Virus record (IMG/VR): IMGVR_UViG_3300036785_000427
Location: 1-52,490 of that record
Strand: one strand, 5' to 3'
DNA length: 52,490 bases
Origin: a virus
A program made the translations under genes and the position numbers. This document shows positions 2 through 52,490 of this stretch, one piece after another. Numbering within the stretch: position 1 is the stretch's first letter; every line of letters starts with the position of its first letter. The notes below the pieces were generated by a model. It was not told the DNA's origin. It saw nothing but the letters and a program-made list of their open reading frames with translations, and ran no database searches.

Positions 2-100
2 GCAATGGTAGCTCTCAAGCGGATCGCCCTTAGAAACAGCACTCCCAACGCTGGGAAGTGGGCAGCACAGATGGCAATGGAGCTAGAAAAATGCATGTAA
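2..100 (+). CDS. 3' end of an upstream gene (partial, unknown)
   Basis: The second reading frame is open from the window edge to a TAA at 98-100 and would encode the last 32 residues of a protein starting outside the window. The peptide contains runs such as VALKRIALRN and AAQMAMELEKC, an ordinary helical composition. Its stop overlaps the start of the next gene (ATG at 91) by ten bases, which matches the overlapping style of the following genes. Nothing in the fragment identifies a function. The first frame stops at 31-33, so this is the better candidate for the upstream gene. It could still be chance, because only 99 bases are visible. Confidence 0.45.
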   Translation, partial: AMVALKRIALRNSTPNAGKWAAQMAMELEKCM

Positions 101-786
101 TCATTCTAGCTGCCGGTAAAAGTAAACGGTTTCAGGAAGAAGGATATACGATTCCTAAGCCATGTTTAAATATAGAATGGCGTGGGAGAATAGCATGGAT
201 GGTATATCATGTATTTTTTACAATTCCAGTCGAGTTTAGTTCAATAACAATCGCAATTCCACCAGGAACTACAAATGATCCAAAAGATATACATTTTAGT
301 GTTTCAGATACCAAAGGTCCAGCAGAAACCGCTATGCAAGTCATTAATAAGGTAGAACCAGATTCTTGTTTAATATTAGATAGTGATATATTAAATTTCA
401 CAAATGATCTGCGTGTGCTCACTAATACTACTGACATTGGAGTATTAGTGAACTCCAGTGCTAATCCAGCTTTTTCTTATGTAGATAGCTTAAACAATTT
501 CACTAGTATCCGAGAAAAGCAGCGTATTTCACCTTATGCTGTTCGTGGAGCATATTTTGTTTCAAAAAAGGCAATGAAAAAATTCCGATTTGCTTTAGAA
601 AATGTAGTGAAAAGCCAGCGAGAGCCATTTATCAGTCATGCTATTGATTTGATGGATTGTACCAAGTACGCATTGGAAACTACATATGATCCTATAGACT
701 GGGGTACCCCGCGTGATATAAAACTAAGTGGAGCAAAAATCGTAACCGAAAAGGGGGAAGAAAATGTACGTGATCCACGCAGCTAA
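91..786 (+). CDS. Nucleotidyltransferase, GT-A fold (sugar-nucleotide type)
   Basis: Predicted cytoplasmic enzyme that would join a nucleoside monophosphate to a phosphorylated sugar or similar acceptor. The N-terminus has the nucleotide-binding signature LAAGKSKRF (residues 6-14) followed by PKP (22-24). KGPAETA lies near residue 75, a metal-binding-like ILDSD ends at residue 99, and DWGTP (203-207) matches the substrate-loop motif of NTP_transferase proteins. At 231 residues it is near the normal size. ATG 91 is preferred over GTG 58 because GGAG sits eight bases upstream and the fold begins there. It overlaps the thymidylate synthase-like gene by 23 bases. The acceptor is unknown; a role in DNA-base or surface modification is possible but unproven. 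Confidence 0.8.
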   Translation: MHVIILAAGKSKRFQEEGYTIPKPCLNIEWRGRIAWMVYHVFFTIPVEFSSITIAIPPGTTNDPKDIHFSVSDTKGPAETAMQVINKVEPDSCLILDSDILNFTNDLRVLTNTTDIGVLVNSSANPAFSYVDSLNNFTSIREKQRISPYAVRGAYFVSKKAMKKFRFALENVVKSQREPFISHAIDLMDCTKYALETTYDPIDWGTPRDIKLSGAKIVTEKGEENVRDPRS

Positions 787-1780
787 TGTTCGAGACGCCC
801 TTCCCAAAGCATTACGATATATTCTACATACGGGAGAAAAAGAAAAGACCAGAAATGGTGATGCTTGGGTCTGTCAAATACCAGTCACCATCCGTTATGA
901 ATTTCCTAAACAACATGTCTTAATAAATCATATAAGAGACGCCAATCCATTCTTCCATTTAATGGAAGCCATGTGGATGCTTGCCGGTAGGGACGATGGG
1001 GAATTTCTTGATTTTTATGTCAAGGACTTCAGCAAGTTATATGGAAATTATGGTAGAATCATGGACGCATATGGCTATAGATGGAAATATGGTCTGGGCC
1101 ATGGTAATCAACTGACTGAGATTATTCAACAATTGCGGAGAACTCCCAATACCCGGCAAGCTGTTCTCCAAATGTGGGGAGCTGGTAGAGAAGATCTTTT
1201 TACAGAAACAGCAAAGCCATGTAATCTCGTCGTTACATTCCGTATCCAGAATAATGGATTACAGATGACTGTATTTAATAGATCAAATGATTTAATTTGG
1301 GGATGTTGTGGTGCAAATGCAGTGCATTTTCCAATTATGCAGGAATATGTGGCAAGTATGCTTGGAATAGGAGTAGGAGTGTATTGGCAGATTTCAACTA
1401 ATCTGCATCTCTATATAGATCATCTAAGCATGCTGCAAAAGCGCATCCGACCAAGTGAAGATCTATATGTTGCTTTGAGAAACACATTTGACTATGAAGG
1501 AACACAATCTTTGATTGAATATCCTGAAACATTTGATGAAGAATTACAAGAAACTATGGCGTGGGTAGATAAGATACATGGTAATGGAGAGATCTATAGT
1601 GGAAATATTTCTAATTCGTTTCTTGGGCAAGTGGTTCTTCCGATGGCTCAAGCTCATTATCTATATAAGAAAAAGGAAATTGCGGGAGCTCTTGAAGTAA
1701 TGGAAAAAGTTATTGCAGAAGATTGGCGAAAAGCTGGAACAGAATGGATAAAAAGGAGATCGTATGATAAATCGCAATGA
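764..1780 (+). CDS. Thymidylate synthase-family enzyme (ThyA fold)
   Basis: Folate-dependent pyrimidine methylase family, 338 residues. It keeps the catalytic cysteine (KPCN, Cys153), the phosphate-binding arginine and aspartate (NRSND, Arg173 and Asp176), an asparagine in GCCGAN (Asn185) at the place that reads uracil in dUMP enzymes, and HLY (His215, Tyr217) near the sugar-binding site. The usual LGLPFN stretch is replaced by WGCCGAN, a divergent phage-type variant. Retention of Asn rather than Asp favours a uridine over a cytidine substrate. Whether it makes dTMP or a hydroxymethylated base cannot be told. ATG 764 follows a purine-rich GGGGGAAG site, and the gene lies in an overlapping operon with nucleotide-metabolism neighbours. 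Confidence 0.85.
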   Translation: MYVIHAANVRDALPKALRYILHTGEKEKTRNGDAWVCQIPVTIRYEFPKQHVLINHIRDANPFFHLMEAMWMLAGRDDGEFLDFYVKDFSKLYGNYGRIMDAYGYRWKYGLGHGNQLTEIIQQLRRTPNTRQAVLQMWGAGREDLFTETAKPCNLVVTFRIQNNGLQMTVFNRSNDLIWGCCGANAVHFPIMQEYVASMLGIGVGVYWQISTNLHLYIDHLSMLQKRIRPSEDLYVALRNTFDYEGTQSLIEYPETFDEELQETMAWVDKIHGNGEIYSGNISNSFLGQVVLPMAQAHYLYKKKEIAGALEVMEKVIAEDWRKAGTEWIKRRSYDKSQ

Positions 1781-2282
1781 CATACACAGTTCACGATATC
1801 TAGCCGGTTGTGTCAAGCGATACTCGACTTGGCCTATGTTGAAAGAACAAACGGTCGGTCATCATTGCTGGCGCGTCGCTTGTATATTTATAGAAGTGTT
1901 TGGACTTCCTCGTGCAGAAGTACTCTATTATTGTCTACATCACGATAGTGGTGAACTATATGCGGGAGACATTCCATTTGGTGTTAAGAAATCCGTACCA
2001 GGACTGAAAGAGTCAATGGACAAGGCAGAATCCATCGGCCTAAAGCATCTCGAGATTAAACTTCCAGAACTAGCAAATGAAGAACTAATAAAAGTCAAAA
2101 TATGCGATCTTTTAGAAATGCATGAAACAGGAGAACACGAGTTGAACATGGGGAACAAATATGCGTTCCCAATAATACAGGATGCACTGCGGACAGCACA
2201 GCAGTTAGCGAAGGAATCATACATGTCAGACCATGTCAACGATTGGCTCAGCAAAAGAGGGAGTTCTATATATGTCCGCTAA
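1764..2282 (+). CDS. HD-domain phosphohydrolase (YfbR-like 5'-deoxynucleotidase candidate)
   Basis: Metal-dependent phosphohydrolase of 172 residues. The HD signature is visible: His33/34 in VGHHCWR, HHD at 59-61, GDIPFGVK at 68-75 (close to the GDIPTPVK of YfbR-like enzymes) and a late Asp115 in KICDLLE. Such proteins remove the 5' phosphate from deoxynucleoside monophosphates. Next to a thymidylate synthase-like gene it could tune dNMP pools or remove unwanted nucleotides. ATG 1764 has a good AAAAGGAG site and overlaps the preceding gene by 17 bases, suggesting coupled translation. The exact substrate is an inference from the family. Confidence 0.8.
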   Translation: MINRNDIHSSRYLAGCVKRYSTWPMLKEQTVGHHCWRVACIFIEVFGLPRAEVLYYCLHHDSGELYAGDIPFGVKKSVPGLKESMDKAESIGLKHLEIKLPELANEELIKVKICDLLEMHETGEHELNMGNKYAFPIIQDALRTAQQLAKESYMSDHVNDWLSKRGSSIYVR

Positions 2283-2730
2283 TGAAAAACAGGTGGGAGG
2301 AAAACACTATAAATCCGGATATGAGCATTGGGATCTCGCTATAGCTATTCCACTTGGTTATTTGGAAGGAACTACGACCAAATACATTTCCAGATGGCGC
2401 AAGAAAGGTGGTATGCAAGACTTAGAGAAGGCTCTACATTACTTGGACAAGTTGATAGAGGTTACGTTCTATAATGTTAACCGTGTGCTTGGACGATTAG
2501 AAATTAAGGTAGAAGTAAATCGATTCGCGCACATAAACAATCTATCAATTTTAGAAGAAGAATATATTTTCATGCTCTGTACTTACGAAACACGAATTGA
2601 TCTTGAAACTGCTAGACTTACACTTCTGGATATGATAGAAGGGGAAGAACTTAGGAGAAATAGCTTGATAAGACCAGAACCAAATTATCCAGGAACCCCT
2701 GAAGATGGAGGTCATCACGCCCAAGAATAG
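2272..2730 (+). CDS. DUF3310 family protein
   Basis: A 152-residue protein whose first 65 residues match the phage DUF3310 pattern: KHYKSGYEHWD, then TKYISRWRKKGG and DLEKALHYLDK. The family is common in phage early regions and often labelled as a nucleotide kinase-like protein, but its activity is not well established. The C-terminal half is helical and not recognised. ATG 2272 is chosen because it follows AGAGGGAG and begins exactly at the conserved domain; an upstream start at 2233 would add 13 unconserved residues. It overlaps the HD gene by 11 bases and closes the nucleotide-metabolism cluster. Confidence 0.78.
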   Translation: MSANEKQVGGKHYKSGYEHWDLAIAIPLGYLEGTTTKYISRWRKKGGMQDLEKALHYLDKLIEVTFYNVNRVLGRLEIKVEVNRFAHINNLSILEEEYIFMLCTYETRIDLETARLTLLDMIEGEELRRNSLIRPEPNYPGTPEDGGHHAQE

Positions 2731-2817
2731 GGGGGTGGGTACAGCCCTAGCTGGCCATATGTTAAGCGGCTTACGCAGGGTCCTGAGTGGCAGGGAACGA
2801 TCATCTAGGGTGCACAA
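2731..2817 (+). ncRNA. Candidate structured intergenic element, copy 1
   Basis: The 87-base gap before the polymerase gene carries a G-run, a short GGG/CCC hairpin, the 17-base sequence GTTAAGCGGCTTACGCA (2761-2777) and then a small hairpin with a GTGG loop. CCCTAG at 2745-2750 can also pair with CTAGGG at 2805-2810, closing the whole element. The 17-mer and flanking layout recur at 9201-9262. The core contains the dyad TAAGC-G-GCTTA. It may be an RNA structure, a protein-binding site or a promoter element; the strand is assumed from the neighbouring genes. Confidence 0.45.
2761..2777 (+). repeat. 17-base intergenic repeat, copy 1
   Basis: GTTAAGCGGCTTACGCA, identical to 9228-9244. It lies 41 bases upstream of the DNA polymerase start codon. 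Downstream bases remain partly alike in the two copies (GGT, then GTGGCA at the same spacing). Confidence 0.85.
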
Positions 2818-4839
2818 ATGGTAGCGCGCAAACAGCCAGTTTTTGATCAATTCCTTCTGCCTTATCAGCACCTAGAAAGCAGTTGGAAACTGCCGGTTGA
2901 GCTGCCAGATCTCTCCCAAGAGACAGAAATCGCAATTGATACTGAAACTTTTGATCCTGGCTTAAAGGAAAATAAAGGACCTGGGTTTTTTAAATGTGAT
3001 AAGAATAATCCTCGTACAGGATATGTCTGCGGTATATCATGTGCATGGAGAGACAAGGCAATCTATATTCCACTATGGCATCACCATAAAGCTTATTTTG
3101 ATCGCAGTCTAGTACAACGATGGCTCAAGTCTTTAGCAGCACAAAATCACACCCGTTTTATATTCCATAACTTTCAGTATGACTGGGGATGGCTTCAAGC
3201 CATATTCGAAGTTCCACCACCAGCTTTGATAGATGATGTTCAGGCAATGTCATCTATGATAAATGAAAATCTTCCTTCATTTTCACTAGACAATCTTTGT
3301 AAGTGGAAAGGACTTCCTGGCAAAGATGAACGATTATTGAAAGAATATGCAGGTTCTTATAGAGTAAAAGAGAATGAAGTCAAATCGTTTATGTACGAAT
3401 ACCCGGCTGAATATGTTGGTCCTTACGCAGAACAAGATGCTATGAGTACACTGCAACTTGCTCATGTTATGCGTCCATTACTTACAGAAGAGAATTTGGA
3501 TGCTGCATATCAAACTGAACGAGACTTGATGCCAATAACTCTAAAAATGAAACAAAGAGGAATACGAGTAGATAAACGCAAAGCAGAAGGAGTGTCAGGC
3601 AGAATTAAAGAACAGCGTGATAACATGCTGTATGATCTTAGCAGTTCAACAGGAGAAAGAGTCACAATAAAAGATATAAGATCTAATCATTGGTTAAAAC
3701 ATCAATTTGATAAACGGGACTTAGTCTATCCTAAAACTTCACCAACTGAAAACTACTCGGAAGGTCAGGCAAGCTTTGAAAAAGGATTCATGGCAAATCA
3801 CCAACATTGGTTCCCCCGTACAGTGCATAAGATTAAAAGCTTAACAGATTTGGCTGACAGGTTCTTGGAAAAATTTATCTTAGATTATGCTCATAAGAGT
3901 AGAGTATTTCCTACAGTTAACCAATTTCGAAATGAAGGTGGAGGTGCACGTAGTCATAGATTCAGCTACAGTGATCCACCACTCCAACAAATGCCTAGCC
4001 GGGATGATGAAACCGCACCTCTTATTCGTTCATGCTTTTTACCAGAAGACGGTGAACTGTGGTGCAGCATCGATTATCAACAACAAGAATATAGGCTCAT
4101 TGTATTCGTAGCAGAGCTACTAAGAGCACGTGGAGCAAAACGTGCTGCTGATATGTATAGAAATGATCCTAAAACAGATTTCCATAACTATGTTATGAAC
4201 ATAACTAAGATACCGCGCAGACGCGCTAAGGACGTAAATTTTGCAAAGAGTTATGGAGCTGGAGTAGCGAAGTTTGCCTTAATGACTGGTATGAGTGAGG
4301 AAGAAGCTAAAAAGACTATAGATCAATATGATGAAGAATTGCCGTTTGTCCGTGAAGCATCTAGTCATTACGCTAGATATGCAGCTAAAAACGGGTACAT
4401 TAAACTGATAGATGGAGCACGAAACCACTTTAATCTTTGGGAACCAATGTATCGTGATTTTGCTAGAGAATGGGAATTTAAACATGCGAACAGAAACATA
4501 GACACACTGCCATGTTCTGAAGAAGAAGTAAACCGTCGTAAGGATGATCCTAAGCATCCTTGGTATGGGGAAAAGATGAAAAGAGCCTATACTCATAAAG
4601 CATTTAACAGAATGATCCAAGGGAGTGCAGCTCGACAGACAAAGAAAGCAATGGTAGAAATCTATAAAGCTGGATTCCAACCCATATTACAAGTCCATGA
4701 TGAACTATGCTTTAGCATTAAGAATAATGATGAAGCAAGAGCTTGTGCTAAGATAATGGAGGATTGTTGTCCTGTTATTACTCTGCCCATGTTAACAGAT
4801 ATTAAGATTGGACCAAATTGGGGTCAGTTGAAAAAATAA
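2818..4839 (+). CDS. Family A DNA polymerase with 3'-5' exonuclease
   Basis: Replicative phage DNA polymerase, 673 residues. The proofreading domain has Exo I (DTETF, Asp41 and Glu43), Exo II (HNFQYDWGWL, Asp122) and Exo III (YAEQDAMS, Tyr203 and Asp207). The polymerase domain has motif A (DYQQQEYRL, Asp419), motif B (RRRAKDVNFAKSYGAG, Arg468, Lys471, Phe475, Tyr479) and motif C (QVHDEL, His627 and Asp628). All catalytic residues are present, so the enzyme should be active. Motif B has Ala where many relatives have Gly after NF. No 5' nuclease domain is present, as in T7-type enzymes. ATG 2818 follows GGGTG and is the first start in frame with the exonuclease domain. The gene is preceded by the repeat-bearing gap. 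Confidence 0.97.
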   Translation: MVARKQPVFDQFLLPYQHLESSWKLPVELPDLSQETEIAIDTETFDPGLKENKGPGFFKCDKNNPRTGYVCGISCAWRDKAIYIPLWHHHKAYFDRSLVQRWLKSLAAQNHTRFIFHNFQYDWGWLQAIFEVPPPALIDDVQAMSSMINENLPSFSLDNLCKWKGLPGKDERLLKEYAGSYRVKENEVKSFMYEYPAEYVGPYAEQDAMSTLQLAHVMRPLLTEENLDAAYQTERDLMPITLKMKQRGIRVDKRKAEGVSGRIKEQRDNMLYDLSSSTGERVTIKDIRSNHWLKHQFDKRDLVYPKTSPTENYSEGQASFEKGFMANHQHWFPRTVHKIKSLTDLADRFLEKFILDYAHKSRVFPTVNQFRNEGGGARSHRFSYSDPPLQQMPSRDDETAPLIRSCFLPEDGELWCSIDYQQQEYRLIVFVAELLRARGAKRAADMYRNDPKTDFHNYVMNITKIPRRRAKDVNFAKSYGAGVAKFALMTGMSEEEAKKTIDQYDEELPFVREASSHYARYAAKNGYIKLIDGARNHFNLWEPMYRDFAREWEFKHANRNIDTLPCSEEEVNRRKDDPKHPWYGEKMKRAYTHKAFNRMIQGSAARQTKKAMVEIYKAGFQPILQVHDELCFSIKNNDEARACAKIMEDCCPVITLPMLTDIKIGPNWGQLKK

Positions 4840-4847
4840 TTTTCTTT

Positions 4848-4882
4848 CATGGGTTGCCTTCTTTCATTTGCCGTGTTATGTA
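4848..4882 (+). promoter_or_regulatory. Putative sigma70-like promoter P1
   Basis: TTGCCT (4854-4859), a 17-base spacer and TATGTA (4877-4882), with a TG just upstream of the -10-like box. The stretch CATGGGTTGCCTTCTT at 4848-4863 is matched at 15 of 16 positions by 6445-6460, which also precedes a GTGTTAT box. Together they look like a pair of related phage promoters. It lies between the polymerase stop and the basic-protein gene. Confidence 0.5.
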
Positions 4883-4910
4883 AAATATTCAACAGAAGGG
4901 AGAAAATTCT

Positions 4911-5306
4911 ATGTCTACACCAGTTGTTCCTACCCCTGTTCCCGCTGGTGCGAAACCAGCAGCAGTGAAAAAGGAGCCCGCAGCTCCCAAGACTCCAAAG
5001 CCCAAGAAGGAAGGGGCCGTTGCACGTCCTCGTCTTCCCAAGTATCCTGATGAACACGTTATCACCGTGTTCAAGGAGAATGCGAAGGCGCGTGGAGCAG
5101 CAGATCGTTTCAAGCGGTATCACACCGGCATGACGGTTAAGCAGTATGTCGAAAAGATTACTGCAGATTTCCAGCGCACAGAAGGCCAGACTTTTGCTGA
5201 TATGCGTTGGGATGAAGACCACAAGTTCATCCACATTGGTCCCACGGTGGTTCCTGTCCCGGTGGCTTCACCCGCTCCTGCAACTCCGGCTCAGGCTTCT
5301 GCCTAA
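4911..5306 (+). CDS. Small basic Ala/Pro/Lys-rich protein, unknown
   Basis: A 131-residue protein with a Pro/Ala/Lys-rich N-terminus (residues 1-40), a compact middle region beginning KYPDEHVITVF (about 44-108), and a Pro/Ala-rich tail. The basic low-complexity arm suggests contact with nucleic acid, but no known fold is recognised. Codon choice is much more GC-rich than in the genes on either side, with many GTT, CCC, AAG and CGT codons. ATG 4911 follows GAAGGGAG at good spacing. The gene stands alone between a promoter-like sequence and a strong intrinsic terminator, which points to separate and probably high expression. Possible roles are DNA coating or host takeover; neither is shown. Confidence 0.75.
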   Translation: MSTPVVPTPVPAGAKPAAVKKEPAAPKTPKPKKEGAVARPRLPKYPDEHVITVFKENAKARGAADRFKRYHTGMTVKQYVEKITADFQRTEGQTFADMRWDEDHKFIHIGPTVVPVPVASPAPATPAQASA

Positions 5307-5323
5307 GATACCAGGACTACTTT

Positions 5324-5353
5324 AGACCCCGCTTCGGCGGGGTCTCCTTTTAT
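5324..5353 (+). terminator. Rho-independent terminator with UUCG tetraloop
   Basis: Perfect 9-base stem AGACCCCGC (5324-5332) and GCGGGGTCT (5337-5345) around a TTCG loop, followed by CCTTTTAT. It ends the transcription unit of the small basic protein on the + strand. The next gene starts only four bases after the T-rich tract. Confidence 0.93.
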
Positions 5354-5356
5354 CTT

Positions 5357-6043
5357 ATGAATCTAATAGTTTTAGATACTGAAACATCTGATTTAGATCC
5401 AGACAAAGGAGCTAGTCTATTAGAACTGGCTTGGATCAAATTAGAACACAATGGTCAGTTATGGGAACAGATTTCTACGGCCGAAAATTATATCATATAT
5501 GATGGTCCTATTTCTCCACATGCTCAAGCTCTTCACCATATCCGTTCTGACATGCTTACTAAGGAAAAGGGAGCTATTTTTAGACACGAAGCAATTACAA
5601 ATCTAATCAATCACATAAGATCAGATACATTCATAGTTGCGCATAATTCCGCATTTGATTCAAAATTTATTCCAGAAATTACTGCACCATGGATCTGTAC
5701 TTTTAGAGCCGCAAAACACATCTGGCCCCATGCCCCCGGCTACTCTAATCAAGTTCTACGTTATTGGCTAAAAATTGATCCATGTGTGCAGGATAGATAC
5801 CCACATCAAGCTCTATACGATGTCACTACAACTGTCAGTATTCTGCTAAAAATGCTAGAGCAATATTCTCCAGAGCAATTATTGCACTTTTCTAGAACAC
5901 CGGTCCGATTAAAGAATATTGGATTTGGAAAACACCGGGGATCATCATTCGACCAGATTCCTCGTGACTATTTATTATGGTTACGATCACAAACTGGTTT
6001 GGATGAAGATCTTAGGCACACACTAGATTCTATCTTAAAATGA
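5357..6043 (+). CDS. DEDDh 3'-5' exonuclease with ExoX-like C-terminal motif
   Basis: DnaQ-fold exonuclease of 228 residues. Catalytic residues are visible: Asp7 and Glu9 in LDTETS, Asp101 in AHNSAFD, and His150 with Asp155 in HQALYD, giving the DEDDh type. A C-terminal segment (189-212) with GFGKHRG, IPRDYL and LWL matches the DUF3820/ExoX-like tail of many RNase T/ExoX relatives. The enzyme would trim single-stranded 3' ends during replication, recombination or host DNA breakdown. Start ATG 5357 has little Shine-Dalgarno sequence because it abuts the terminator. Its stop overlaps the next start as ATGA (6040-6043), so the two nuclease genes are coupled. Confidence 0.88.
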   Translation: MNLIVLDTETSDLDPDKGASLLELAWIKLEHNGQLWEQISTAENYIIYDGPISPHAQALHHIRSDMLTKEKGAIFRHEAITNLINHIRSDTFIVAHNSAFDSKFIPEITAPWICTFRAAKHIWPHAPGYSNQVLRYWLKIDPCVQDRYPHQALYDVTTTVSILLKMLEQYSPEQLLHFSRTPVRLKNIGFGKHRGSSFDQIPRDYLLWLRSQTGLDEDLRHTLDSILK

Positions 6044-6462
6044 AAGACGGTGGTTTAAGATCTATATTTCGAATTAAACTTGCAGGATACCAGTGGACAT
6101 CTGTAGAAACCGCTGGCACAATTAGCGGAGTCCCAGATTCAGAATTCTGCACTCCTCATGGAATTCAAGGTTGGGTTGAATTCAAGCAGACTAAAGTATT
6201 CTATGTAGAGATTAACCCGTTCCAGGTTGCATGGCTCATGCGCCGTTGCCGGATGGGTGGAAATGCTTGGATTGCTGTGCGACGCACGCCAACAGCTAAG
6301 AAATACGATGGAGCTGATGAACTGTGGTTGATGCGTGGTGATCAGGCTCAAGCTTTATTTGATAGTGGATTAAGAAATACCTCTGCATGGTGTTGGGATG
6401 GAGGGGAAAGCAACTGGAATTTTCAAGAGATTCATAATATATTGCATGGGTTGGCTTCTTAA
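6040..6462 (+). CDS. PD-(D/E)XK nuclease, VRR-NUC/resolvase-like
   Basis: A 140-residue protein with the nuclease pattern GVPDSE (Asp33), WVEFK (Glu47 and Lys49) and NPFQVAW (Gln62), followed by GGNAWIAV. This order matches VRR-NUC-like and phage endonuclease proteins that cut branched DNA or nick duplexes. The gene begins at the ATGA overlap with the DEDDh exonuclease, so the two are likely made together in DNA processing. The last 50 residues are tryptophan-rich and not recognised. The substrate cannot be read from the sequence. Confidence 0.75.
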   Translation: MKDGGLRSIFRIKLAGYQWTSVETAGTISGVPDSEFCTPHGIQGWVEFKQTKVFYVEINPFQVAWLMRRCRMGGNAWIAVRRTPTAKKYDGADELWLMRGDQAQALFDSGLRNTSAWCWDGGESNWNFQEIHNILHGLAS

Positions 6463-6480
6463 GCTAGACTGTGTTATATT
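6445..6480 (+). promoter_or_regulatory. Putative sigma70-like promoter P2
   Basis: TTGGCT (6451-6456), a 17-base spacer and TTATAT (6474-6479), preceding a gene with an AAAGGAGG ribosome site. The -35 region overlaps the end of the nuclease gene and shares CATGGGTTG and CTTCTT with P1 at 4848. Both promoters have GTGTTAT at the -10 region. Confidence 0.45.
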
Positions 6481-6502
6481 TTACAGGTAAAAGGAGGATA
6501 AA

Positions 6503-6760
6503 ATGAATCCTAATGATCTAATGGAATTATTGTTCATTGCTGCCAATGCAAGAACAGAAGAAGAAAAAGCTCGCGTTGCATGGCGTACAAATGATTATAT
6601 ATGGACAAATACACCACACACATTTTCTATAGGATTTTGCAGAACCTTCAATAATCTTTGCCAGGATCAAAAATGGCCTTGGATTAACGATCTCTGGTCT
6701 AAAGAAGAAATAAAATTAATGAAAGAAGAAATGAAAAAGACATATGGATCCGCACTATAA
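6503..6760 (+). CDS. Small protein of unknown function
   Basis: An 85-residue protein, acidic in parts and tryptophan-rich, with no recognised domain. The N-terminal 25 residues look helical (LMELLFIAANAR), and the C-terminus is a charged helix (KEEIKLMKEEMKK). It has a strong AGGAGG site seven bases before ATG 6503 and lies directly downstream of the P2 promoter-like sequence. It overlaps the SNF2-type helicase by 17 bases, so it may be a helper or regulator of the helicase, which is only an inference from position. Confidence 0.7.
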   Translation: MNPNDLMELLFIAANARTEEEKARVAWRTNDYIWTNTPHTFSIGFCRTFNNLCQDQKWPWINDLWSKEEIKLMKEEMKKTYGSAL

Positions 6761-8303
6761 GCACCAAGAAACTGCTGCAAAACTATTGTGGGACAATGAT
6801 GTCTTTGCTCTTATTATGGAACAAGGAACCGGTAAGTCACGGCCAGTGTTAGATGATTGGATGGCACGAACTTATAACTATCAGAAATATGGTGTTGATC
6901 CAGATCCAGCAAACAGAAACCTTGATGGATCAGATTATCACATAATGGATGCTATAGCAATGGATCTTGTTATCCTTGCTCCAAAAGGCTGTTATATGAA
7001 TTGGATAGGTACGGAAGAAGAACCTGGGGAACTCACCAAATGGATTCCGTCTGATAAGTTAAAGGATATTCATATTGGTGCATGGAGAAGTGGAGCTAAC
7101 AAGACACAACGGCAAGCCTTGAATAATTTGCTTCATGCTTATAGTCCACGGTTCTTAGCGATGAACGTAGAGGCCCTTAACCGGGATGGTGAGGCTCGGG
7201 AATATCTTCTTAAATTTATTGATGGACATAATGTTATAGGAGTTATTGATGAGTCCACAACAATCTGCCATGAGAATGCAGCACGGACTAAATTTATCTT
7301 AGATACATTATCAGAAAAATTCAGAGTTCGTCGCATTCTTACCGGATTGGTAGCACCGGAAAGTCCTATGGATCTTTATACTCAATACTGTTATTTAGAT
7401 TGGAGGATTATAGGGCAGAAATCATTCTGGGGATTTAAGAACCGATATGCGATTCTACAACAGATAGATTTCCGTCGTACTTCCCAGCGACTTGAAGATA
7501 GTGCAAATAAGAAGTTTTATAGGAGACCTTCTGTTGTAGTTGCCTATCGCAATATAGAAGAACTTAATCAGAAGATAATGAAATCTAGTTACAGGGTCCT
7601 TAAAGAGGATGTACTAGATCTCCTACCTAAGATCTATCAATTTTGGGATATTGATCTTACTGAAGAACAGGAACCTGTTTATAATCAGATGCGTGATGTT
7701 GCCATGGCTCAATTGGCCAGTGGTGACTTCACAACAGCAACTATGAAATTAGATCAGCTAGGAAAGCTTCAGCATATTCTATGTGGGCATGTCCGAAAAG
7801 AAACTGGTGAAATCGAAGATATTCCAGAAAATCGAACCGATGCTGTTGTGGAAATACTTCATAATCATGCTGGTAAGGCTATCATCTGGGCTCCTTATCC
7901 TCGTGCATTAAGAAAAATTCGGGACCGACTTCAAGATGAATTCGGTCCCGACAGTACGGTAGGCTTCTGGGGAGAAACTAAACTAGAAGAGCGCTTAGAG
8001 GCACGATCACGTATTCAGAATGATGATACTTGTAGATTCATTGTAAGTAACCAGAGTGTTGGTAAGTTCGGAAATACCTGGACCGCCTGTAATCTGGTCA
8101 TTTACTATGCGAACTCTTTCGATAACGAGGACAGACAACAGAGCGAAGATCGGGCACATAGAATTGGCCAGACTAGATCTGTAACATATATCGATCTTCG
8201 AGCTAAAGGAACAATTGATGAAAAATTAATTCAAACACTCCGAAAGAAGATAAATATCAGTTCTACTCTAGTAGGAGATGCGTTTAGATCCTGGTTAATA
8301 TAA
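6744..8303 (+). CDS. SNF2/DEAD-like superfamily 2 helicase
   Basis: ATP-dependent DNA translocase or helicase of 519 residues. Walker A is EQGTGKSR (GTGKS at 28-32). The Walker B/DExx motif is GVIDEST (Asp169 and Glu170). The second RecA lobe ends with SEDRAHRIGQT (about 467-477), the motif VI form typical of SNF2 proteins, followed by GTIDEKL. It is a minimal two-lobe enzyme without extra domains. It likely acts in replication, recombination or remodelling together with the adjacent exonuclease and resolvase-like nuclease. Translation is probably coupled to the preceding small gene, since its own ribosome site is weak. Confidence 0.92.
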   Translation: MDPHYKHQETAAKLLWDNDVFALIMEQGTGKSRPVLDDWMARTYNYQKYGVDPDPANRNLDGSDYHIMDAIAMDLVILAPKGCYMNWIGTEEEPGELTKWIPSDKLKDIHIGAWRSGANKTQRQALNNLLHAYSPRFLAMNVEALNRDGEAREYLLKFIDGHNVIGVIDESTTICHENAARTKFILDTLSEKFRVRRILTGLVAPESPMDLYTQYCYLDWRIIGQKSFWGFKNRYAILQQIDFRRTSQRLEDSANKKFYRRPSVVVAYRNIEELNQKIMKSSYRVLKEDVLDLLPKIYQFWDIDLTEEQEPVYNQMRDVAMAQLASGDFTTATMKLDQLGKLQHILCGHVRKETGEIEDIPENRTDAVVEILHNHAGKAIIWAPYPRALRKIRDRLQDEFGPDSTVGFWGETKLEERLEARSRIQNDDTCRFIVSNQSVGKFGNTWTACNLVIYYANSFDNEDRQQSEDRAHRIGQTRSVTYIDLRAKGTIDEKLIQTLRKKINISSTLVGDAFRSWLI

Positions 8304-8370
8304 AAAAGAAAGCATGGATTTTTATGGTGTGGTACACTGTGGTAGCATAGTAATAGAGTGAGTATAAGTC
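8304..8370 (+). promoter_or_regulatory. Leader of the 71-residue gene; no clear motif
   Basis: A 67-base AT-rich gap with an A-run, CATGGATTTTTATGG and repeated GGTA/TGTGG words. It loosely resembles the P1/P2 promoters (CATGG followed by T-rich sequence), but no confident -35/-10 pair can be placed. No terminator hairpin was seen. Confidence 0.2.
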
Positions 8371-8586
8371 ATGGTAAGTTTAGACACATGGCCGTATCGT
8401 AGATACGGTCGCAAACATGGGACCGAACCAAGAGAACCTAGTAAGATCATGAAGATCATACGTTTAAGAGATATAGAAAATATGCGCTGGCGACAAATAG
8501 GAGAACAGATGGGAATGAGCCATCAAGGCCCATATCTACTCTATAAACGATGGCGAGACTGGGCGTACAGTTCCCAAGGAGAATAA
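8371..8586 (+). CDS. Small HTH-like basic protein
   Basis: A 71-residue basic protein. Its C-terminal half has a helix-turn-helix look: IENMRWRQIGEQMGMS followed by a recognition-like helix ending KRWRDW, as in sigma region 4 or homeodomain-like domains. It could be a phage transcription regulator for a switch to late genes. ATG 8371 lacks an obvious Shine-Dalgarno sequence, which lowers confidence in the start. It ends two bases before the next gene, whose ribosome site lies inside it. Function is inferred only from the helix-turn-helix pattern. Confidence 0.6.
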   Translation: MVSLDTWPYRRYGRKHGTEPREPSKIMKIIRLRDIENMRWRQIGEQMGMSHQGPYLLYKRWRDWAYSSQGE

Positions 8587-8588
8587 TT

Positions 8589-9050
8589 ATGGAACCGCGC
8601 GAATTTGTAGACAAAGAGTTACAGATAATTGGAATAATGTTCAAGACACAAAAAGAAATTTATCCCATGGTAGTTTTGATAAAGGACAATGAACGATTTC
8701 AAATACCATTTTCTTATAAGAATGCTGCTCACAAAGAAATTGTGAGCCAAGGAATAAAAGATCTTGTTAAGAAATCAGAACCGGACGTTGTTGTCTTTAT
8801 GGCAGAAGCATGGTCGAAAATTATTAAGGATAAATTAGATCGGATACCACTTGGGATTTCTCCCAATGATCCCGATAAACATGAAATTTTAATTGTCCAG
8901 ATAGAATTTCAGTCAGGAGAAAAATTTTCGGCTGAGGCTCAAATTATTAGGGAAGGACAAGAAACTCATCTAGCCCCATTCATGTATGCTGATTCGAGTA
9001 TGAGTATGGGGGGATTTATGGACTTTTTCCCTATAAAACGGGTGAATTAA
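8589..9050 (+). CDS. Conserved-looking phage protein, unknown
   Basis: A 153-residue mixed alpha/beta protein with no recognised family. Notable stretches are DVVVFMAEAWSK and HEILIVQIEF, which look like core strands, and a methionine- and serine-rich tail. ATG 8589 is chosen because AAGGAG lies six bases upstream; an in-frame ATG at 8550 inside the previous gene has no such site. It is the last gene of the + strand arm, facing the late genes across the 9051-9458 junction. Confidence 0.7.
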   Translation: MEPREFVDKELQIIGIMFKTQKEIYPMVVLIKDNERFQIPFSYKNAAHKEIVSQGIKDLVKKSEPDVVVFMAEAWSKIIKDKLDRIPLGISPNDPDKHEILIVQIEFQSGEKFSAEAQIIREGQETHLAPFMYADSSMSMGGFMDFFPIKRVN

Positions 9051-9150
9051 GCTTGTGTATCGGTGATTTGGAACCCTGAGCGACTGGAACCATGGGCGGT
9101 AGCATGTCAACCAGTATGGTAAGGACCACTCTCCTCGATGCATCTGGTGC

Positions 9151-9180
9151 GGATAGTTCCAGTAAGTCCTGGAACTATCC
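9151..9180. terminator. Perfect 12-bp hairpin in convergent gap
   Basis: GGATAGTTCCAG (9151-9162), loop TAAGTC, and CTGGAACTATCC (9169-9180). It sits between converging transcription units, where bidirectional termination is expected, but it lacks a T-run on either strand. It could instead be a structured RNA arm or a dyad protein site. Confidence 0.45.
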
Positions 9181-9200
9181 CTCCCATATGGCGTATTTTG

Positions 9201-9262
9201 GGGGGCACTTAGGTAGCGGCCCCCTCTGTTAAGCGGCTTACGCACGGTGCTTTGTGGCACTG
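9201..9262 (+). ncRNA. Candidate structured intergenic element, copy 2
   Basis: Starts with a G-run pairing with a C-run (GGGGGG near 9200 with CCCCC near 9221), then GTTAAGCGGCTTACGCA at 9228-9244, then the hairpin GTGC-TTTGTG-GCAC. This is the same order as in 2731-2817: G/C hairpin, identical core, GTGG-containing hairpin. The surrounding stems differ in sequence while still being able to pair, which would fit selection on structure. The strand and role are uncertain. Confidence 0.45.
9228..9244 (+). repeat. 17-base intergenic repeat, copy 2
   Basis: GTTAAGCGGCTTACGCA, identical to 2761-2777, here in the convergent non-coding junction. Confidence 0.85.
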
Positions 9263-9339
9263 AATTCCGTCCTACCGGGCATTTTGCCCCGGTTTGCCAT
9301 TGAAGGCGCGGGAACGACAGAATTTGGTGACTGATACGG

Positions 9340-9458: not shown

Positions 9459-11759
9459 CTATACATCTCTATCCAAATTTGCATCGATCCAATCCTGGAC
9501 CTGCTTCAACATCACATCAGCATCTGATTTTAACTCAGCCTCTTCACGATTAATCGGACCGTAATGCTGGCGTAGTTTCCGCAGCACAATCGCACAGGTC
9601 TCACAGGCAAATGCCGGTTGCTTCTTGCACATGTCCTGAAACTTTGCGCCATTGCCAGAACCATAGTTCTGCCAGTCCGAGCTAGAGCACGATACATCTT
9701 CGCTAAAGTAATCCATAAAACCTTGTGGATTGTCGGTCGAGGAAGCAGCAGAAAACGCATTGAACAGTTCATCGAATTTCGAGGAGCATGAGTGTGCATT
9801 GTATGAGGTCTGAAACAACCCAGCTTCGGCGGTATCAGAAGAGACATTGTCTGCTGATTGATCCCTGCCGCAGCAGTGCTGACCGGAACTTTCGCGCATC
9901 CCCAGACCCATCAACAGTGCCCACAGATGCCGAAGTGTGTCAGCCCCGTCTCTAGTATTGTCCATGTTTGCATCACGGTATTGCGTGTAATACCATTGGA
10001 GCACGTCCTTCTCAGAGTTACCTGAGTTCTTCTTAGCCATCTCGACCGCAGGTCCGTAACCCATCTGCCATTGCCGATACGTGTTGGCCCAAGCGAGAGC
10101 AAAGCCTTTGACATAACCATCTGGAGCTAAACCGCGATCACGCCAACTGTAGCCTGAAATCCTAGATTGGATCGCTATTTTAGCGATTACTTCCTGCTGC
10201 TGTGATGTCAGCGGAGCCGGTAATCCCGGCGGAATGTAGGGTGGCATATGAGTATCGAGTGCATTCCAAGTCTGCTCGCCTACGACACCATCAGCATCCA
10301 AACCACGCGAACGTTGATAGTCGTACACTGCTTCCTCTGTCAAGGAGCCAAAGTCGCCGTCCGCGGTAAGATTACAACCCTCCAACTCTATATTCAGATC
10401 GCTCTGTAATTCGACCACGTATGGCCCTTCGTCGCCAATACCGAGCACCGGTTTAGATCCTGATGTGGGAGGCTCTGTCGGAGGCCTGTCAGGCGGATTA
10501 ATCGGGGGGCGATCCGGCGGCTGCTCTGGTGGCGTGCCAATCGCCTGCCCAGAAACTGACTCGGCAATCGATTGGCAGATAGCATCAAAATTGTTGCGAT
10601 AAAGATCTGCATCCGCACTACTATCTACAAAACAGGTTTCAATTAAGATTGCTGGCTCATTGGTATTGTTGAGGAAAAACAGGTCAGTACGCTTCTTTGG
10701 ACCGCGGTCTAGAAAATGACCACTATCAGCAATAGCACTGGACACATCTGCTGCCAAAGTCTGCTGAGTAACATACAGACATTCAACACCCATCGGCTTG
10801 CTAGTGGTCTGGTAAGCATTGAAATGAACACTCACATCGAGATCACGTGTACGTGCATTGTGATAATTCACAATTGTATTGAGATTTGTGCTTTGGTCAT
10901 GTGAGGTGTTATCGTGAAATGTTTCAACACCAACGCCGATGTGCCGCAGCATTGCTGCAGTCTGCTCGACAACTCGCCGCGCCTCGTTTACTTCATCAAG
11001 ATAGCCGCTCGCTCCGCGGATATACTTGCCGTGACCACTGCTGATTACGATCTTCATGGGTGCTCCAATGCTCGACTGATAAGGCAAAACATCTTCCACA
11101 TTCACGTACTCCCCATATTCGGAGTAGGTGACACCTACGTTGCCAAGTCCGGCAACCTGCTCAGCCATCTTGTTGGCCCAGCTCCAACCAACTCCATGCC
11201 CGTCGAGATCAAATGCAACAAACCAGATCGGAAGGTTTGGCTTGTCGCAGTCCTTCCTGAGCAGATCCAGGAGCGCGACCGACTGCATGCCACGTTCGAC
11301 TATTATCCCAATCACGTTGGGGTGAGAGACGTAACGCAGCGCGTTGTTTAGTGACAGCAGCACCGGATTTTTGGCGATAATCAGGAACCCGCTGTTCTCC
11401 ACCTCCTCCATCACGTAGTCAAAATAGGCATCATAGCTGTCTGGATTGTCCAGCTCTATTATCGTATGCCCTTGCGCGCGCCGTAGTGCATACTGACGAT
11501 CCAGGTTCCGCCGCCAGCCCGCACCGCGCGGATCAATTCGACCCTCATTATACTGACCAGACACGTCGTCATCCGGCAGGTAGGGTTCGTAGATCGGACC
11601 GTCATCCTCGTAGTTCTCGTGGAACAGGTTGCAGTAGGCAATATTGTCTCCGCTCCCTACGCGCGGATCATCGTAAGGCACCTCGGTTATCCGAGCATCG
11701 TCGTCCGCAATGTCTTCGAGATCCGCGCCAATAAGGTAGCTGAGCGCTTTCTGTGGCAT
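9459..11759 (-). CDS. Multidomain endolysin (amidase, PG-binding, lysozyme-like)
   Basis: A 766-residue cell-wall hydrolase at the end of the late operon. Residues 70-225 resemble a GH114-like TIM barrel (WRRNLDRQY, IIELDNPDSYD, GIIVERG). Residues 235-402 are an Amidase_3 (zinc N-acetylmuramoyl-L-alanine amidase) with all four expected residues: His243, Glu256, His312 and Glu374. A Pro-rich linker (408-432) leads to a PG_binding_1 domain (441-502). The last 240 residues contain GMRESSGQ (Glu623) and AEAGLFQTS, a lysozyme or transglycosylase-like active-site pattern. No signal peptide is visible, so export would need a holin. Two tiny membrane proteins lie about 400 bases upstream. The N-terminal domain may be degenerate and used only for binding. 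Confidence 0.88.
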   Translation of the reverse strand: MPQKALSYLIGADLEDIADDDARITEVPYDDPRVGSGDNIAYCNLFHENYEDDGPIYEPYLPDDDVSGQYNEGRIDPRGAGWRRNLDRQYALRRAQGHTIIELDNPDSYDAYFDYVMEEVENSGFLIIAKNPVLLSLNNALRYVSHPNVIGIIVERGMQSVALLDLLRKDCDKPNLPIWFVAFDLDGHGVGWSWANKMAEQVAGLGNVGVTYSEYGEYVNVEDVLPYQSSIGAPMKIVISSGHGKYIRGASGYLDEVNEARRVVEQTAAMLRHIGVGVETFHDNTSHDQSTNLNTIVNYHNARTRDLDVSVHFNAYQTTSKPMGVECLYVTQQTLAADVSSAIADSGHFLDRGPKKRTDLFFLNNTNEPAILIETCFVDSSADADLYRNNFDAICQSIAESVSGQAIGTPPEQPPDRPPINPPDRPPTEPPTSGSKPVLGIGDEGPYVVELQSDLNIELEGCNLTADGDFGSLTEEAVYDYQRSRGLDADGVVGEQTWNALDTHMPPYIPPGLPAPLTSQQQEVIAKIAIQSRISGYSWRDRGLAPDGYVKGFALAWANTYRQWQMGYGPAVEMAKKNSGNSEKDVLQWYYTQYRDANMDNTRDGADTLRHLWALLMGLGMRESSGQHCCGRDQSADNVSSDTAEAGLFQTSYNAHSCSSKFDELFNAFSAASSTDNPQGFMDYFSEDVSCSSSDWQNYGSGNGAKFQDMCKKQPAFACETCAIVLRKLRQHYGPINREEAELKSDADVMLKQVQDWIDANLDRDV

Positions 11760-45580: not shown

Positions 45581-48500
45581 CAGGCAGCTTTTTTCAGTCT
45601 AGCTGTTTGATTTAACTTCAAGGTATGATTAAGATTAACTGCCCTATTTATCACACCAGAACAATTGATAGTTCTAACAATTGTTCCAGTCAATGACACT
45701 TTTTGATTCAAGCAACAACCAACAAAACTTACTTTTTGAACAACAACCCCATTAAGATATACTCCACCATAATGATTTCTACTTGCACCAGAGCCAAAGA
45801 CAAACGAACTATATGCATCTAGCACACCGATTCCAGAAGTTTGATCAACACCTATACCATGGATTTGTGAAGAATTAGTGACTAGAGCACCACTTGCACG
45901 CCAAGAAGAAACCGATACACCACTAATCTGCACCGCTCCAGTAGAAAGTATACCAGAGCCAATTGATTTTGTTATAGCTTGTCCAGCTATAATAGCTGGA
46001 CGAGGAACCATTGCCCCACTGTTTGCCTGAAGAGAGAGACCGACACCAGCTACATTAGAATTCTGTGCTATCAATATTCCGGTGGAGATACTACGACTGA
46101 AACCCACACCAGCAATCATGGCCGATGCTGCTACCACTGAGCCAACAGCCGGAGTATTACTGACAGCAGAAGCTACAATCGAAGAATTCGCAGCGGCCAG
46201 TGCAGCCGTAGCAAGAGCCCGACTCGTGCCCGCGCCACTCGCTGTCGCAACCTGTGCTACAAGAGCACCAGTTCCAGTTGTGACTATTACGGCATTTGCT
46301 ACTCCAGCAACAACCGACGATTGTGCTGTCAGCACTCCACTGTTCGCCGCAAGCCCAGAACCGACACCAGCTACAACAGCAGCCTGAGATATCAGCGCTC
46401 CGGTTCCAACACCACGACTAATACCAGAGCCAGCGATCAAGGCTGGTGACACCACCACCGAACCAATAGCAGAACTACTACTAACAGACGAAGCTACGAT
46501 CAAGGAATTTGTTGTCGTCAATACAGCAGTGCCAAGAGCTTTGCTTAAGCCTGCGCCACTCGTCGTCGCAGTCTGCGCTGCAAGAGTGCCAGTTCCAGTT
46601 GTAAATATTATCGCATTCGCCACTCCAGCAATAACAGACGACTGCGAAATTAATACTCCACTGTTCGCCGCAAGTACAGAAGCAACACCAGCGAGAGAAC
46701 TTGACTGTGATGCTAATGCACCAGTCGCAACGCTACTTCCTATGCCAGTAGAAATAAGAGCAGATACTCCTGCCGCTGGTGTGCCAGTAACGACGCTACT
46801 TCCTTTAGCAGAAGAAACAAGAGCAGATACTCCTGCTGCGAGAATACCAGTGCCGACACTACTTCCTACACCAGAAGAAGTAAGAGCAGATACTCCTGCC
46901 GCGAAAGTGCCAGTGCCGACGCTACCTCCTACACCAGAAGAAGTAAGAGCAGATACTCCTGCCGCGAGAGTGCCGGTACCAGCAGCAACATTGCCAGCTA
47001 TACCAGAAGAAGTAAGAACAGATGCTCCTGCTGTGAGAATACCAGTGCCGACGCTACTTCCTACACCAGAGGAAGCAAGAGTAGATACTCCTACAGTCAG
47101 TGTACCAGTTACGATCCAACTGCCTGTGCCAGAAGAAACGAGAGCAGACACTCCTGCCGCTGGCGTTCCAGTAACGATACTACTTCCTTTGGCAGAAGAA
47201 GTAAGAACAGACGAACCTGCCAGAAGTGCACCTGTGCCGACACTACTACTCACAGCCGAAGCTGAAATCGCAACGCTACCAGCAGTCGCAACACCAGAAC
47301 CAAGAGATATTGAAACACCAGTCGAAGCAGCAATAGAGGACTGAGCTGAAAGTACACCTGTTCCTGTCGTAGTTACTGGTGCAGAGCCCCAATAATTAAG
47401 CTGGTTTGAGTCAAGACCTGCACGGTTAAATCCTACTATAGTATCATATATTCCTGTCTCACGAACATTACCGTTGAAATAGACTCCTCCGATCCCTCCC
47501 AAAGTGACAACACCGGCATACATAGAATTGGTACCAAAATTCTGTGAACTATTATCAGTGCCATCAAGCATAATAGCACCAGAACCACCATTATAAATCA
47601 CATTTATTCTATGATATACTCCATCTGTAGCTGTGTAGGTTATACTGGTTCCAGCATTCACAAGCAGCTGGTTAGGATTCGATCCTCCATAGTTAAATAT
47701 CACGGACACAGAACCAGCAGAATCTCCAATGAGATCACTTTGCAAACCATCATTTATATACTCAGCTACGATACTCTCTGCCTCCGGCTGATTGGAGATG
47801 GTAACCCCAGCTTGCATGAGCTGGGCGGAGCTGCGCGTAAATTGCACAGCAGGCTTGTTGTTTCCTCCGTTCAGCAGCAATACTGGCTGATTCGCAGCCG
47901 TGCTTTGGATCATATCCGCAACGCTGGCAGTCTGATCGTAAATTTTTACAACGAACGCAGTTCCTCCATGCGTTGCTATGAATGACGTTACTGCCGCCTG
48001 ATCAAGATCACCACTAGAAATTAGTCCAATGTCAGTTTCAACATTATCACCGCTCGCGCGTACCCTGATCACTTTTATATTGTTAGCAATAGACATAGGA
48101 CTGCCTGCACGCAATCCCCACCATGTCTTAGGTCGCGGCGAAATATCCATCGGCCCGAAATAAGAACTACTGGTAATAAATGCTAGCGAGTTAGCATTCA
48201 GTGCACTTGCATTTGCCGCAGTGAGCACCAATCCATAACAGGACACCTCCAACATGTAACCACCAAACGCATATGTCCCACCAGTCCCGCCTCCTTCATT
48301 CCCGATGAGATTTATTCCAGTGGTAGACGTGTTAGAGACAGATATTACCTCCTCTCCTGCCATAACAAATGTGTGAGATACAGAACCATCATAAGCTGCC
48401 GCTACCGATGTCCATAAATCAGGCGGAACAACAAGTGTGGAACTACCCAATATAGCAATGAAATTTATAACATTCTGAACAGTGTTGACATTGTTGATAC

Positions 48501-50889: not shown

Positions 50890-51485
50890 TATTCTGCCTT
50901 CGCAGGTTCTGTGAAGGTGAAATCAATAGGATCCGTATAAACTGTTCCTTCATGTACTTGGACAGGAATTGGATCTGGAGTAACCAACGGTGGTCTCACT
51001 ACCGTTGTCACTTCTGTATCAGAAACCAAGGTCGTAGGTTTATCAACTCCACCAAACGAGATCACTGAATCAGCCCCAAATCCTGTACCAATGCAAGAAA
51101 GGGTAAAATCAGAGTCACCAGAAACAGCAGTGTCTGGAGAGAGTGATGTTAAAGCTGGAGGTGCAGGAGGTGTGTCATGCTCAATTTCAAAACTACTTCC
51201 TGGAGGAATATCCTTAACCACAAGATTTGAAAAACGCGATCTACCACCAGACATAAGATTGCTATCAATACTCACATGAGAGGTTGCTATATGCAGATTG
51301 AATAATGTATTTTCTTGAAGCACAATATCATTATCATTTTGATCTTTTCCAATGACCTGATTAACCAAACAAAGATAATCATTCCCATATTGAGTTGGAA
51401 CAGACTTCAGTGTAATAGAAGTCAACATCTCATTTGCTGCGATGCTTGTCCCACGAGAAGTTTCATCTATCATTACCGTGGTCAT
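50889..51485 (-). CDS. Protein with C-terminal IPT/TIG Ig-like domain
   Basis: A 198-residue protein starting at ATG 51485, whose first base is the last base of the terminase stop (TAATG), with GGGAGGG seven bases upstream. The first 110 residues are beta-rich. The C-terminal 90 (ALTSLSPDTAVSGDSDFTLS, GTGFGADSVISFGG, VQVHEGTVYTD) have the pattern of an IPT/TIG Ig-like domain, common on phage surfaces. It would bind weakly to surfaces or decorate the capsid. Function is inferred from the domain. Confidence 0.7.
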   Translation of the reverse strand: MTTVMIDETSRGTSIAANEMLTSITLKSVPTQYGNDYLCLVNQVIGKDQNDNDIVLQENTLFNLHIATSHVSIDSNLMSGGRSRFSNLVVKDIPPGSSFEIEHDTPPAPPALTSLSPDTAVSGDSDFTLSCIGTGFGADSVISFGGVDKPTTLVSDTEVTTVVRPPLVTPDPIPVQVHEGTVYTDPIDFTFTEPAKAE

Positions 51486-52490
51486 TAATATCCCTCCCAA
51501 TTTCCTAACGAGATTGCTATTCCATATGTAAAGGCATCAAGTAGATCATCCGCACGTTCTTCAATGTCACCTACACGAAATCCAAGCACCTGACCTAAAA
51601 GATGGTTCTTAGCCACCTGCTTATAAGATATGACTCTATCAAAAGCAGTTTCAAGAAACTTAACCTTCTTTTGGAAGACATAGCCGGATACGTTGATAGC
51701 TCTCTCTGCCTTGCCGAGTTGTGTCAGTTTCTGTGGTAGCTCACTCACAAGAAAATTACGACGACGAGCTTGTTGAAGAAGAATAGAACCAGAAGCCTTA
51801 TCTTCAATGAAGCAACCCTTACTGCCCAATCGAGCCCCACACTTCTTTGCATACTCCTCCAGATTATTATATGCAACCGGAAGCCAAAGCTCTAACATCC
51901 CACCTTCAATTTGAAAGTATTCATAATCAACAACCTTGAGCCACTTTTGATCACCTAATGATTCATAAGCCCAATAGACAATGCCGGTTCCATCATTTTC
52001 TTTGCCAGTTTTAACCGCAGTATCAATCGTGGCGAATACATACATACATCGTTCTGGGAAGGGTTCTGGTTTCCCTTCCGTTAACATATTATCTAAACTA
52101 AAGAATGCTTGTCCTGCCCAATCTACGAACTCAGCTAGATACTCTTGCGCGTAGACTAAGGGGGCGTTGTCTCGTTCAAGTTTTTCCAGTTCATCGGCTG
52201 GGAGGAACGGATTGCTATGTGACGGAGCGTGATATTCTTTGAATCCGTACTCTGGCAAATTGCAGATGCGCCAGAAAAGATTATCCTCGTTGATACCATT
52301 AGTATTTGACGCAATGATAGCTGCCCCACGGAAGTCAAGAAGGGTAGGTCGTATAGCTTTTTCCCAGACAGAGATTGCATTGGGTTTCGTGAATGCGGCT
52401 TCATCTATGATAACAAGATGATAAAACCTAGATCGACCTGCCTTCTCATCCTCAAGGGTCCATATTTCAATACGACCACCAGACGATGTC
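51485..52490 (-). CDS. Terminase large subunit (partial, 5' end outside window)
   Basis: The DNA-packaging motor, cut by the window edge; 334 residues are visible in the frame beginning at 52489. The ATPase part shows Walker B HLVIIDEAAF and the coupling motif ASNTNG. The nuclease part shows FATIDTAVKTG (first catalytic Asp), FIEDKASG, and RADDLLDAFTYGI at the end (last acidic pair). The Walker A region lies outside. It should cut concatemers and push DNA into the prohead through the portal. A GGGAGGG site at its end serves the next gene. Confidence 0.9.
   Translation of the reverse strand, partial: TSSGGRIEIWTLEDEKAGRSRFYHLVIIDEAAFTKPNAISVWEKAIRPTLLDFRGAAIIASNTNGINEDNLFWRICNLPEYGFKEYHAPSHSNPFLPADELEKLERDNAPLVYAQEYLAEFVDWAGQAFFSLDNMLTEGKPEPFPERCMYVFATIDTAVKTGKENDGTGIVYWAYESLGDQKWLKVVDYEYFQIEGGMLELWLPVAYNNLEEYAKKCGARLGSKGCFIEDKASGSILLQQARRRNFLVSELPQKLTQLGKAERAINVSGYVFQKKVKFLETAFDRVISYKQVAKNHLLGQVLGFRVGDIEERADDLLDAFTYGIAISLGNWEGY

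Follow-up and report, generated by a model that had tools for sequence, protein, structure and literature searches.

What keeps a short noncoding sequence identical at two gene boundaries of one phage genome? The question is raised by the window, that is, the whole stretch of 52,490 nucleotides analysed here (IMG/VR record IMGVR_UViG_3300036785_000427), a partial virus record that represents part of the genome of a tailed, sheath-bearing phage. Its + strand carries the 17-base core GTTAAGCGGCTTACGCA twice, at 2761-2777, before a DNA polymerase gene, and at 9228-9244, in the junction between the convergent early and late genes. The first-pass annotation had reported both copies and suggested either a conserved RNA or a two-site DNA element. 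Our comparative analyses indicate that the site is real, conserved and functional-looking, and that it is most likely a repeated protein-binding control site.

Both copies are exact, as had been claimed, and no third match with up to three mismatches was found on either strand of the window, where shuffled sequences give a chance expectation of 0.03; the 17-mer is thus not common elsewhere in the window at random. Each core contains the 11-bp palindrome TAAGC-G-GCTTA (2763-2773 and 9230-9240, without strand), the dyad that had already been recognized, and weaker copies of this palindrome show no excess in the window. Copy 1 lies in an 87-base gap between the stop of a 165-aa open reading frame (ORF; 2730) and the start of a family A DNA polymerase gene (2818-4839, + strand; PF00476, 2.1e-43), with its dyad centre at 2768, 50 bp before the start codon. 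Copy 2 occupies the gap from the last + strand gene, which ends at 9050, to the first long - strand gene (9459-11759, amidase/endolysin). This is the boundary between the + strand early module (58-9050), with thymidylate synthase, DNA polymerase A, exonuclease and helicase, and the - strand late module (9459-52258), with endolysin, baseplate, sheath, portal and terminase, so the gene coordinates agree with the original placement of the two copies. At both places the stop codon of the upstream gene closely precedes the site.

The polymerase of the window is only up to 35% identical to those of cultured phages. Relatives were represented by about 75 loci from IMG/VR, which was searched with the polymerase singly and as an alignment. 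A core stands before the polymerase start codon at 11 loci, mostly at a distance of 50-61 bp from the dyad centre; all four of these loci whose contigs extend to the early/late convergent junction have one there as well. The exact core is present in L001, whose polymerase is 99% identical to that of the window, while in L002 (81% identical) the core reads GTTAAGGGCATTACGCA ahead of the polymerase and GTTAAGGCCATTACGCA at the corresponding convergent junction. A scan of all polymerase relatives for the pattern GTTA-xyz-N-z'y'x'-T[AG]C added pre-polymerase cores at L021, L003, L084, L085, L087, L099, L011 and L012; the last two also have a junction core, their junctions being identical to each other, and both positions are filled in L002, L011 and L012. 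The search of related phages proposed with the annotation thus recovered a version of the core at both positions. A degenerate scan of IMG/VR with TGTTAANSSCNTTACGCA returned 54 stretches, mostly on unrelated contigs and at about the chance level, and was not used as evidence.

Two longer genomes carry copies at other places. The near-complete genome G001 (75 kb, the contig of L011) has a third exact copy between the gene of a NusG paralog and a small zinc-finger gene; the core is reversed relative to this following gene, as the dyad permits either orientation, and its centre is about 56 bases from the start codon (counted by eye). In G004 (78 kb, the contig of L007) the core is absent at the polymerase and at the junction, and copies were found at 24756, at 65273 in the same NusG/zinc-finger gap and, as a bare palindrome, at 63079. 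Exact palindromes thus number two in the window, three in G001 and three in G004. In L012 (8615-8962, compared with approximately 8893-8960 in L011), a T5orf172/MUG113 (GIY-YIG-like) gene is inserted between the core and the polymerase; the two loci are identical on both sides of the insertion, the bases flanking it are altered, and the core is intact.

Covariation of the palindrome arms and the RNA reading

The core has the form TAxyzNz'y'x'TA, and its arms change together between lineages, with four distinct perfect arm pairs (AGC/GCT, ATG/CAT, GTG/CAC and AGG/CCT). Across 15 window-type elements, arms pair with their own partner at 4.6 of 5, compared with 3.5 when partners are dealt among elements, and none of 20,000 permutations was as good, in a test that leaves shared ancestry in. 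The seven central bases are 98% identical within genomes and 60% identical between genomes, and the flanks (40/39% within, 35/38% between) are no closer within than between. Copying or conversion of a longer stretch is therefore disfavoured, as the flanks would have come along; that only the recognition sequence is kept in step is explained by a shared binding protein. The site behaves in this respect as operators and stoperators do, being short, alike within a genome and different between genomes. In addition, as RNA the core by itself folds with an energy of 0, and only one base would be left in the loop of its innermost pair, which argues that the dyad is DNA.

The flanks tell a different story from the core. 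The G runs, the GTGG and the CCCTAG (2745-2750)/CTAGGG (2805-2810) pair, from which hairpins around the core had been drawn, are literally present in the window, but the resulting fold is not conserved. Dinucleotide shuffles fold at least as stably as the flanking hairpins, and folding z-scores averaged near zero or weakly negative over 17 window-type and 20 other-type elements (see below). In the 15 window-type elements, the halves of the left and of the right hairpin show no preference in pairing for their own partner over one from a different element (p 0.17-0.69), and the long-range CCCTAG/CTAGGG closure shows none either (p 0.59), so that covarying pairs, which had been anticipated in the hairpins, are confined to the palindrome arms. 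L001 matches the window at mostly 93-100% identity in the neighbouring genes but at 40-63% over the 45 bases right of the core; its right flank is unrelated and lacks the CTAGGG strand, despite its nearly identical polymerase. In near-identical phages (window 2733-2817 against L001 3181-3265, and L002 against L021) the flanks of the core thus look as though they had been replaced: they diverge at a much higher rate than the genes next to them, with the core itself fixed.

A structured RNA (a leader, a riboswitch-like element or a small RNA) with conserved hairpins around the core is accordingly very improbable. Hairpins can be drawn, and the distant relatives L004, L014, L110 and L123 have, at the same positions, long arms that pair well within the element. 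These belong to the other element type, a GC-rich element that lacks the palindrome (its approximate consensus is AAANGCCCGCTGG...CACCCC...AACGCACC) and occupies the same two positions in distant relatives; only a few of its members have such arms, and across the set own-arm pairing reaches only p = 0.06. We take this type to be a counterpart in position and base no conclusion about RNA on it. Rfam gave nothing significant at gathering or lax thresholds, and RNAalifold found no consensus structure in either type; neither helices with compensatory changes nor a match to a described Rfam family was thus observed. For the window type, the structured RNA is largely refuted. Since the arms covary, the flanking helices do not, and the right flank is replaced in L001, the conserved thing is the DNA dyad, not an RNA fold. 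Of the two possibilities left by the annotation, it is the two-site DNA element that holds, through its conserved positions, the compensatory arm changes and a within-genome identity limited to the core.

Register, promoter-like features and a candidate binding protein

Downstream of the dyad centre, GGC at +21 to +23 and A at +39 stand in gap-free register in most of 14 elements, the best six-column block reaching 5.17 bits against a null of 1.9 +/- 0.35 from random shifts. The A at +39 is found in 13 of the 14, and the rest of its hexamer is variable. On the + strand of the window, the GGC lies at 2789-2791 (copy 1) and 9256-9258 (copy 2), followed by the boxes TAGGGT (2806-2811) and TACCGG (9273-9278), of which the first may be a -10 element. 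The distance from the dyad centre to the polymerase start codon is nearly fixed (50, 50, 61, 61, 56, 55, 56, 55, 56 and 56 bases); in L012, where the inserted gene intervenes, the distance to that gene is 69. The box at +38 is placed where a -10 element would give a very short leader. In addition, the bare palindrome at 63079 in G004 lies between GCTTTACA and TAGGTT, which by eye look like the -35 and -10 boxes of a sigma-70-like promoter.

The explanation that we favour, with a probability just short of even, is a rigid double-stranded DNA control site of approximately 50 bp, operator- or promoter-like, which occurs at a small number of gene boundaries in this group of phages and is served by a dimeric binding protein that co-evolves with it. 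We infer both protein binding and promoter or operator action. The 11-bp palindrome would be bound by the dimer, with the GGC at +21 and the TA-containing box at +38 held at fixed distances downstream. Given a dyad 50-61 bp ahead of the start codon and a +38 box in the position of a -10, the polymerase copy would most likely be a regulated promoter with an upstream activator, or an operator. At the junction, where no + strand gene follows the copy in the window, L002 or L011, binding of the same protein may serve either to initiate an antisense transcript or to restrain convergent transcription. A gene start thus follows the polymerase copy and not copy 2 of the window, which had led to the view that a promoter at the junction would make little sense; this objection is weakened by L013, L096 and L110, in which a + strand reading frame follows the junction element.

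The best candidate binder of the dyad is a putative helix-turn-helix (HTH) protein of 71 aa with a fold like that of sigma-70 region 4 or DeoR, encoded by the second-last early gene (8371-8586, + strand). Profile and structure matches point to this fold. Taken singly, the three-helix product (AlphaFold pLDDT 83) gives a weak match to sigma-70 region 4 (E 0.018), which 9 of 19 homologs also match (best 1.6e-4); among solved structures, the folds closest to it are DeoR-type operator-binding domains and sigma region 4, with a probability of 0.99 but E 0.4 or worse. HTH homologs are encoded at the same place in relatives. The motif Q[GA]P[YF] before LLY is common to the HTH proteins of the window, L002, L011 and L006/L007, all of which have palindromic cores, and GA[CS]LLY is found in those of six relatives with the other element type. 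L006 and L007 fall outside the clade of the window in the polymerase tree, yet they combine the Q[GA]P[YF] helix with palindromic cores. The agreement of helix type with element type is no more than suggestive of the 71-aa protein as the binder. A gene-content comparison intended to name the binder was uninformative, as the window is partial.

Several observations weigh against the favoured control site and its candidate protein, besides the shared ancestry left in the permutation test. One arm pair is broken in L002, in both of its copies. Copy 1 has no consensus -35 and no scored sigma-70 promoter, and a promoter at copy 2 of the window, which no + strand gene follows, would have no obvious product. 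Relatives of the other type have no palindrome where the window has it. The correlation between HTH protein and element is partly phylogenetic, and L123, with a D-like helix and a non-palindromic junction element, breaks the pattern.

Other conserved gaps and features of the window

Outside its seed loci, a profile of the other element type found junction or near-junction copies in L094 (15474-15579, E 5.7e-11) and L026 (11631-11722, E 5.4e-10). A block resembling CTAACC..TTGTTTTTATTAGG is conserved ahead of the junction element in the other-type loci L094, L096, L026, L013 and L010. A further conserved GC-rich gap (GATTAGGCGnGGTCGC...CCTAAACACC) lies downstream of the gene after the polymerase (L006 5020-5215, L024 11780-12020); it has no Rfam match at the gathering threshold and may be a structured RNA.

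No tRNA or tmRNA was found. In the window itself, the terminase large subunit ORF (51485-52258) encodes 257 aa, compared with 433 aa in G001, and is either interrupted or cut near the contig end. A 63-base repeat occurs nine times at 46594-47361 within a late ORF of 1375 aa, and short Gly/Pro-type repeats fill parts of the region from 20.8 to 31 kb.

Alternative readings and comparison with known systems

The strongest alternative, which we consider unlikely although well above the others, is a roadblock or 'stoperator', in which RNA polymerase would be halted by a phage protein on the dyad, so that early transcription ends at the junction and read-through into the polymerase gene is reduced. 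The position of the site, closely after the upstream stop codon at both places, would suit this role. In a simple scan of either strand, the junctions of the window, L002, L011 and several relatives contained no intrinsic terminator, though the phage has a strong terminator-like hairpin at 5324-5345. Moreover, mycobacteriophage stoperators are repeated, mostly not associated with promoters, and change in step with their repressor (PMC6550527). However, there are merely two or three such sites per genome, the near-fixed start-codon distance and the +39 box point to initiation, and one G004 palindrome lies inside promoter-like sequence. A combined scheme, one site type with two jobs, appears improbable: a phage sigma-region-4-like mini-protein at the dyad would start transcription of the polymerase gene and police convergent early/late transcription at the junction, possibly with the NusG paralog.

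Slightly less probable again is a recruitment site for the phage's own NusG paralog, which would alter elongation as polymerase passes, as RfaH does at ops. The paralog (PF02357) is encoded by four near-complete or long relatives, L138 (1501-2001, in G001, E 2e-9) and L139-L141, and a copy of the core adjoins its gene in G001 and G004. Upstream of copy 2 by approximately 120 nt, a JUMPstart-like match that contains GGGCGGTAGCATG was found at 9061-9106, below threshold (22.5 bits against a gathering score of 35). This sole match lies outside the element, and no ops-like sequence above the family threshold was found inside it. Furthermore, RfaH recognizes a single strand within a paused complex and depends on a fixed orientation, whereas the signal here is a palindrome in duplex DNA, reversed in one of its copies; the genes that follow copy 2 are oppositely oriented, and the window, which is partial, contains no NusG gene. 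Clusters of a TGTACA palindrome adjoin the NusG paralog gene in three genomes (L139, L140 and L141).

A site for a host protein (a regulator, a replication factor or a nucleoid factor), with lineage differences reflecting different hosts, is hardly likely: differing hosts would give the same covariation pattern, but the sites keep to phage gene boundaries, and each genome carries few copies, which match one another exactly. Three further candidates were rejected: a CtrA site (TTAA-N7-TTAA) has the wrong spacing, and several cores lack TTAA; exchange between two direct copies of a recombination site would delete replication genes; a homing-endonuclease target is unlikely, as the core is intact in L012 with the insertion present. 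With regard to a T7-type RNA polymerase promoter, no PF00940 match was found in 12 relatives, in a search whose control was uninformative.

The site provides a clean marker for gene control in an uncultivated phage group without annotated regulators, and the natural variants of site and candidate protein offer matched pairs. The junction copy raises the question of how early and late transcription are kept apart without obvious intrinsic terminators.

Among known systems, the site resembles the stoperators and operators of cluster A mycobacteriophages (L5, Bxb1), which are likewise short repeated sites, alike within a genome and different between related genomes, and are matched to a cognate DNA-binding protein (PMC6550527, PMC9283540), the place held here by a candidate. 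The cluster A sites differ in being asymmetric, numerous and oriented with transcription; here there are two to four copies of an 11-bp palindrome, and many asymmetric copies in mostly one orientation were not found. Activator-dependent promoters such as the T4 middle promoters with their MotA box (PMC2988021, PMC6755090) would share the upstream activator site, the fixed spacing to a possible -10-like box and the lack of a good -35. Here, promoter activity is putative, and in the window no gene lies downstream of the junction copy. The MotA box is not known to be such a dimer palindrome. As in the RfaH ops/JUMPstart system (PMC7819879), a NusG paralog is present in near-complete relatives and one core copy stands beside its gene, but the sequence differs from ops, and the signal is a duplex palindrome of free orientation. 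The HK022 put RNA (PMC9378689), a parallel prompted by the RNA reading, is also a phage cis-element between early genes; it acts as a folded RNA, whereas the hairpins here are not conserved. Taken together, the kind of system is already known, and this instance of it is new as far as our searches show.

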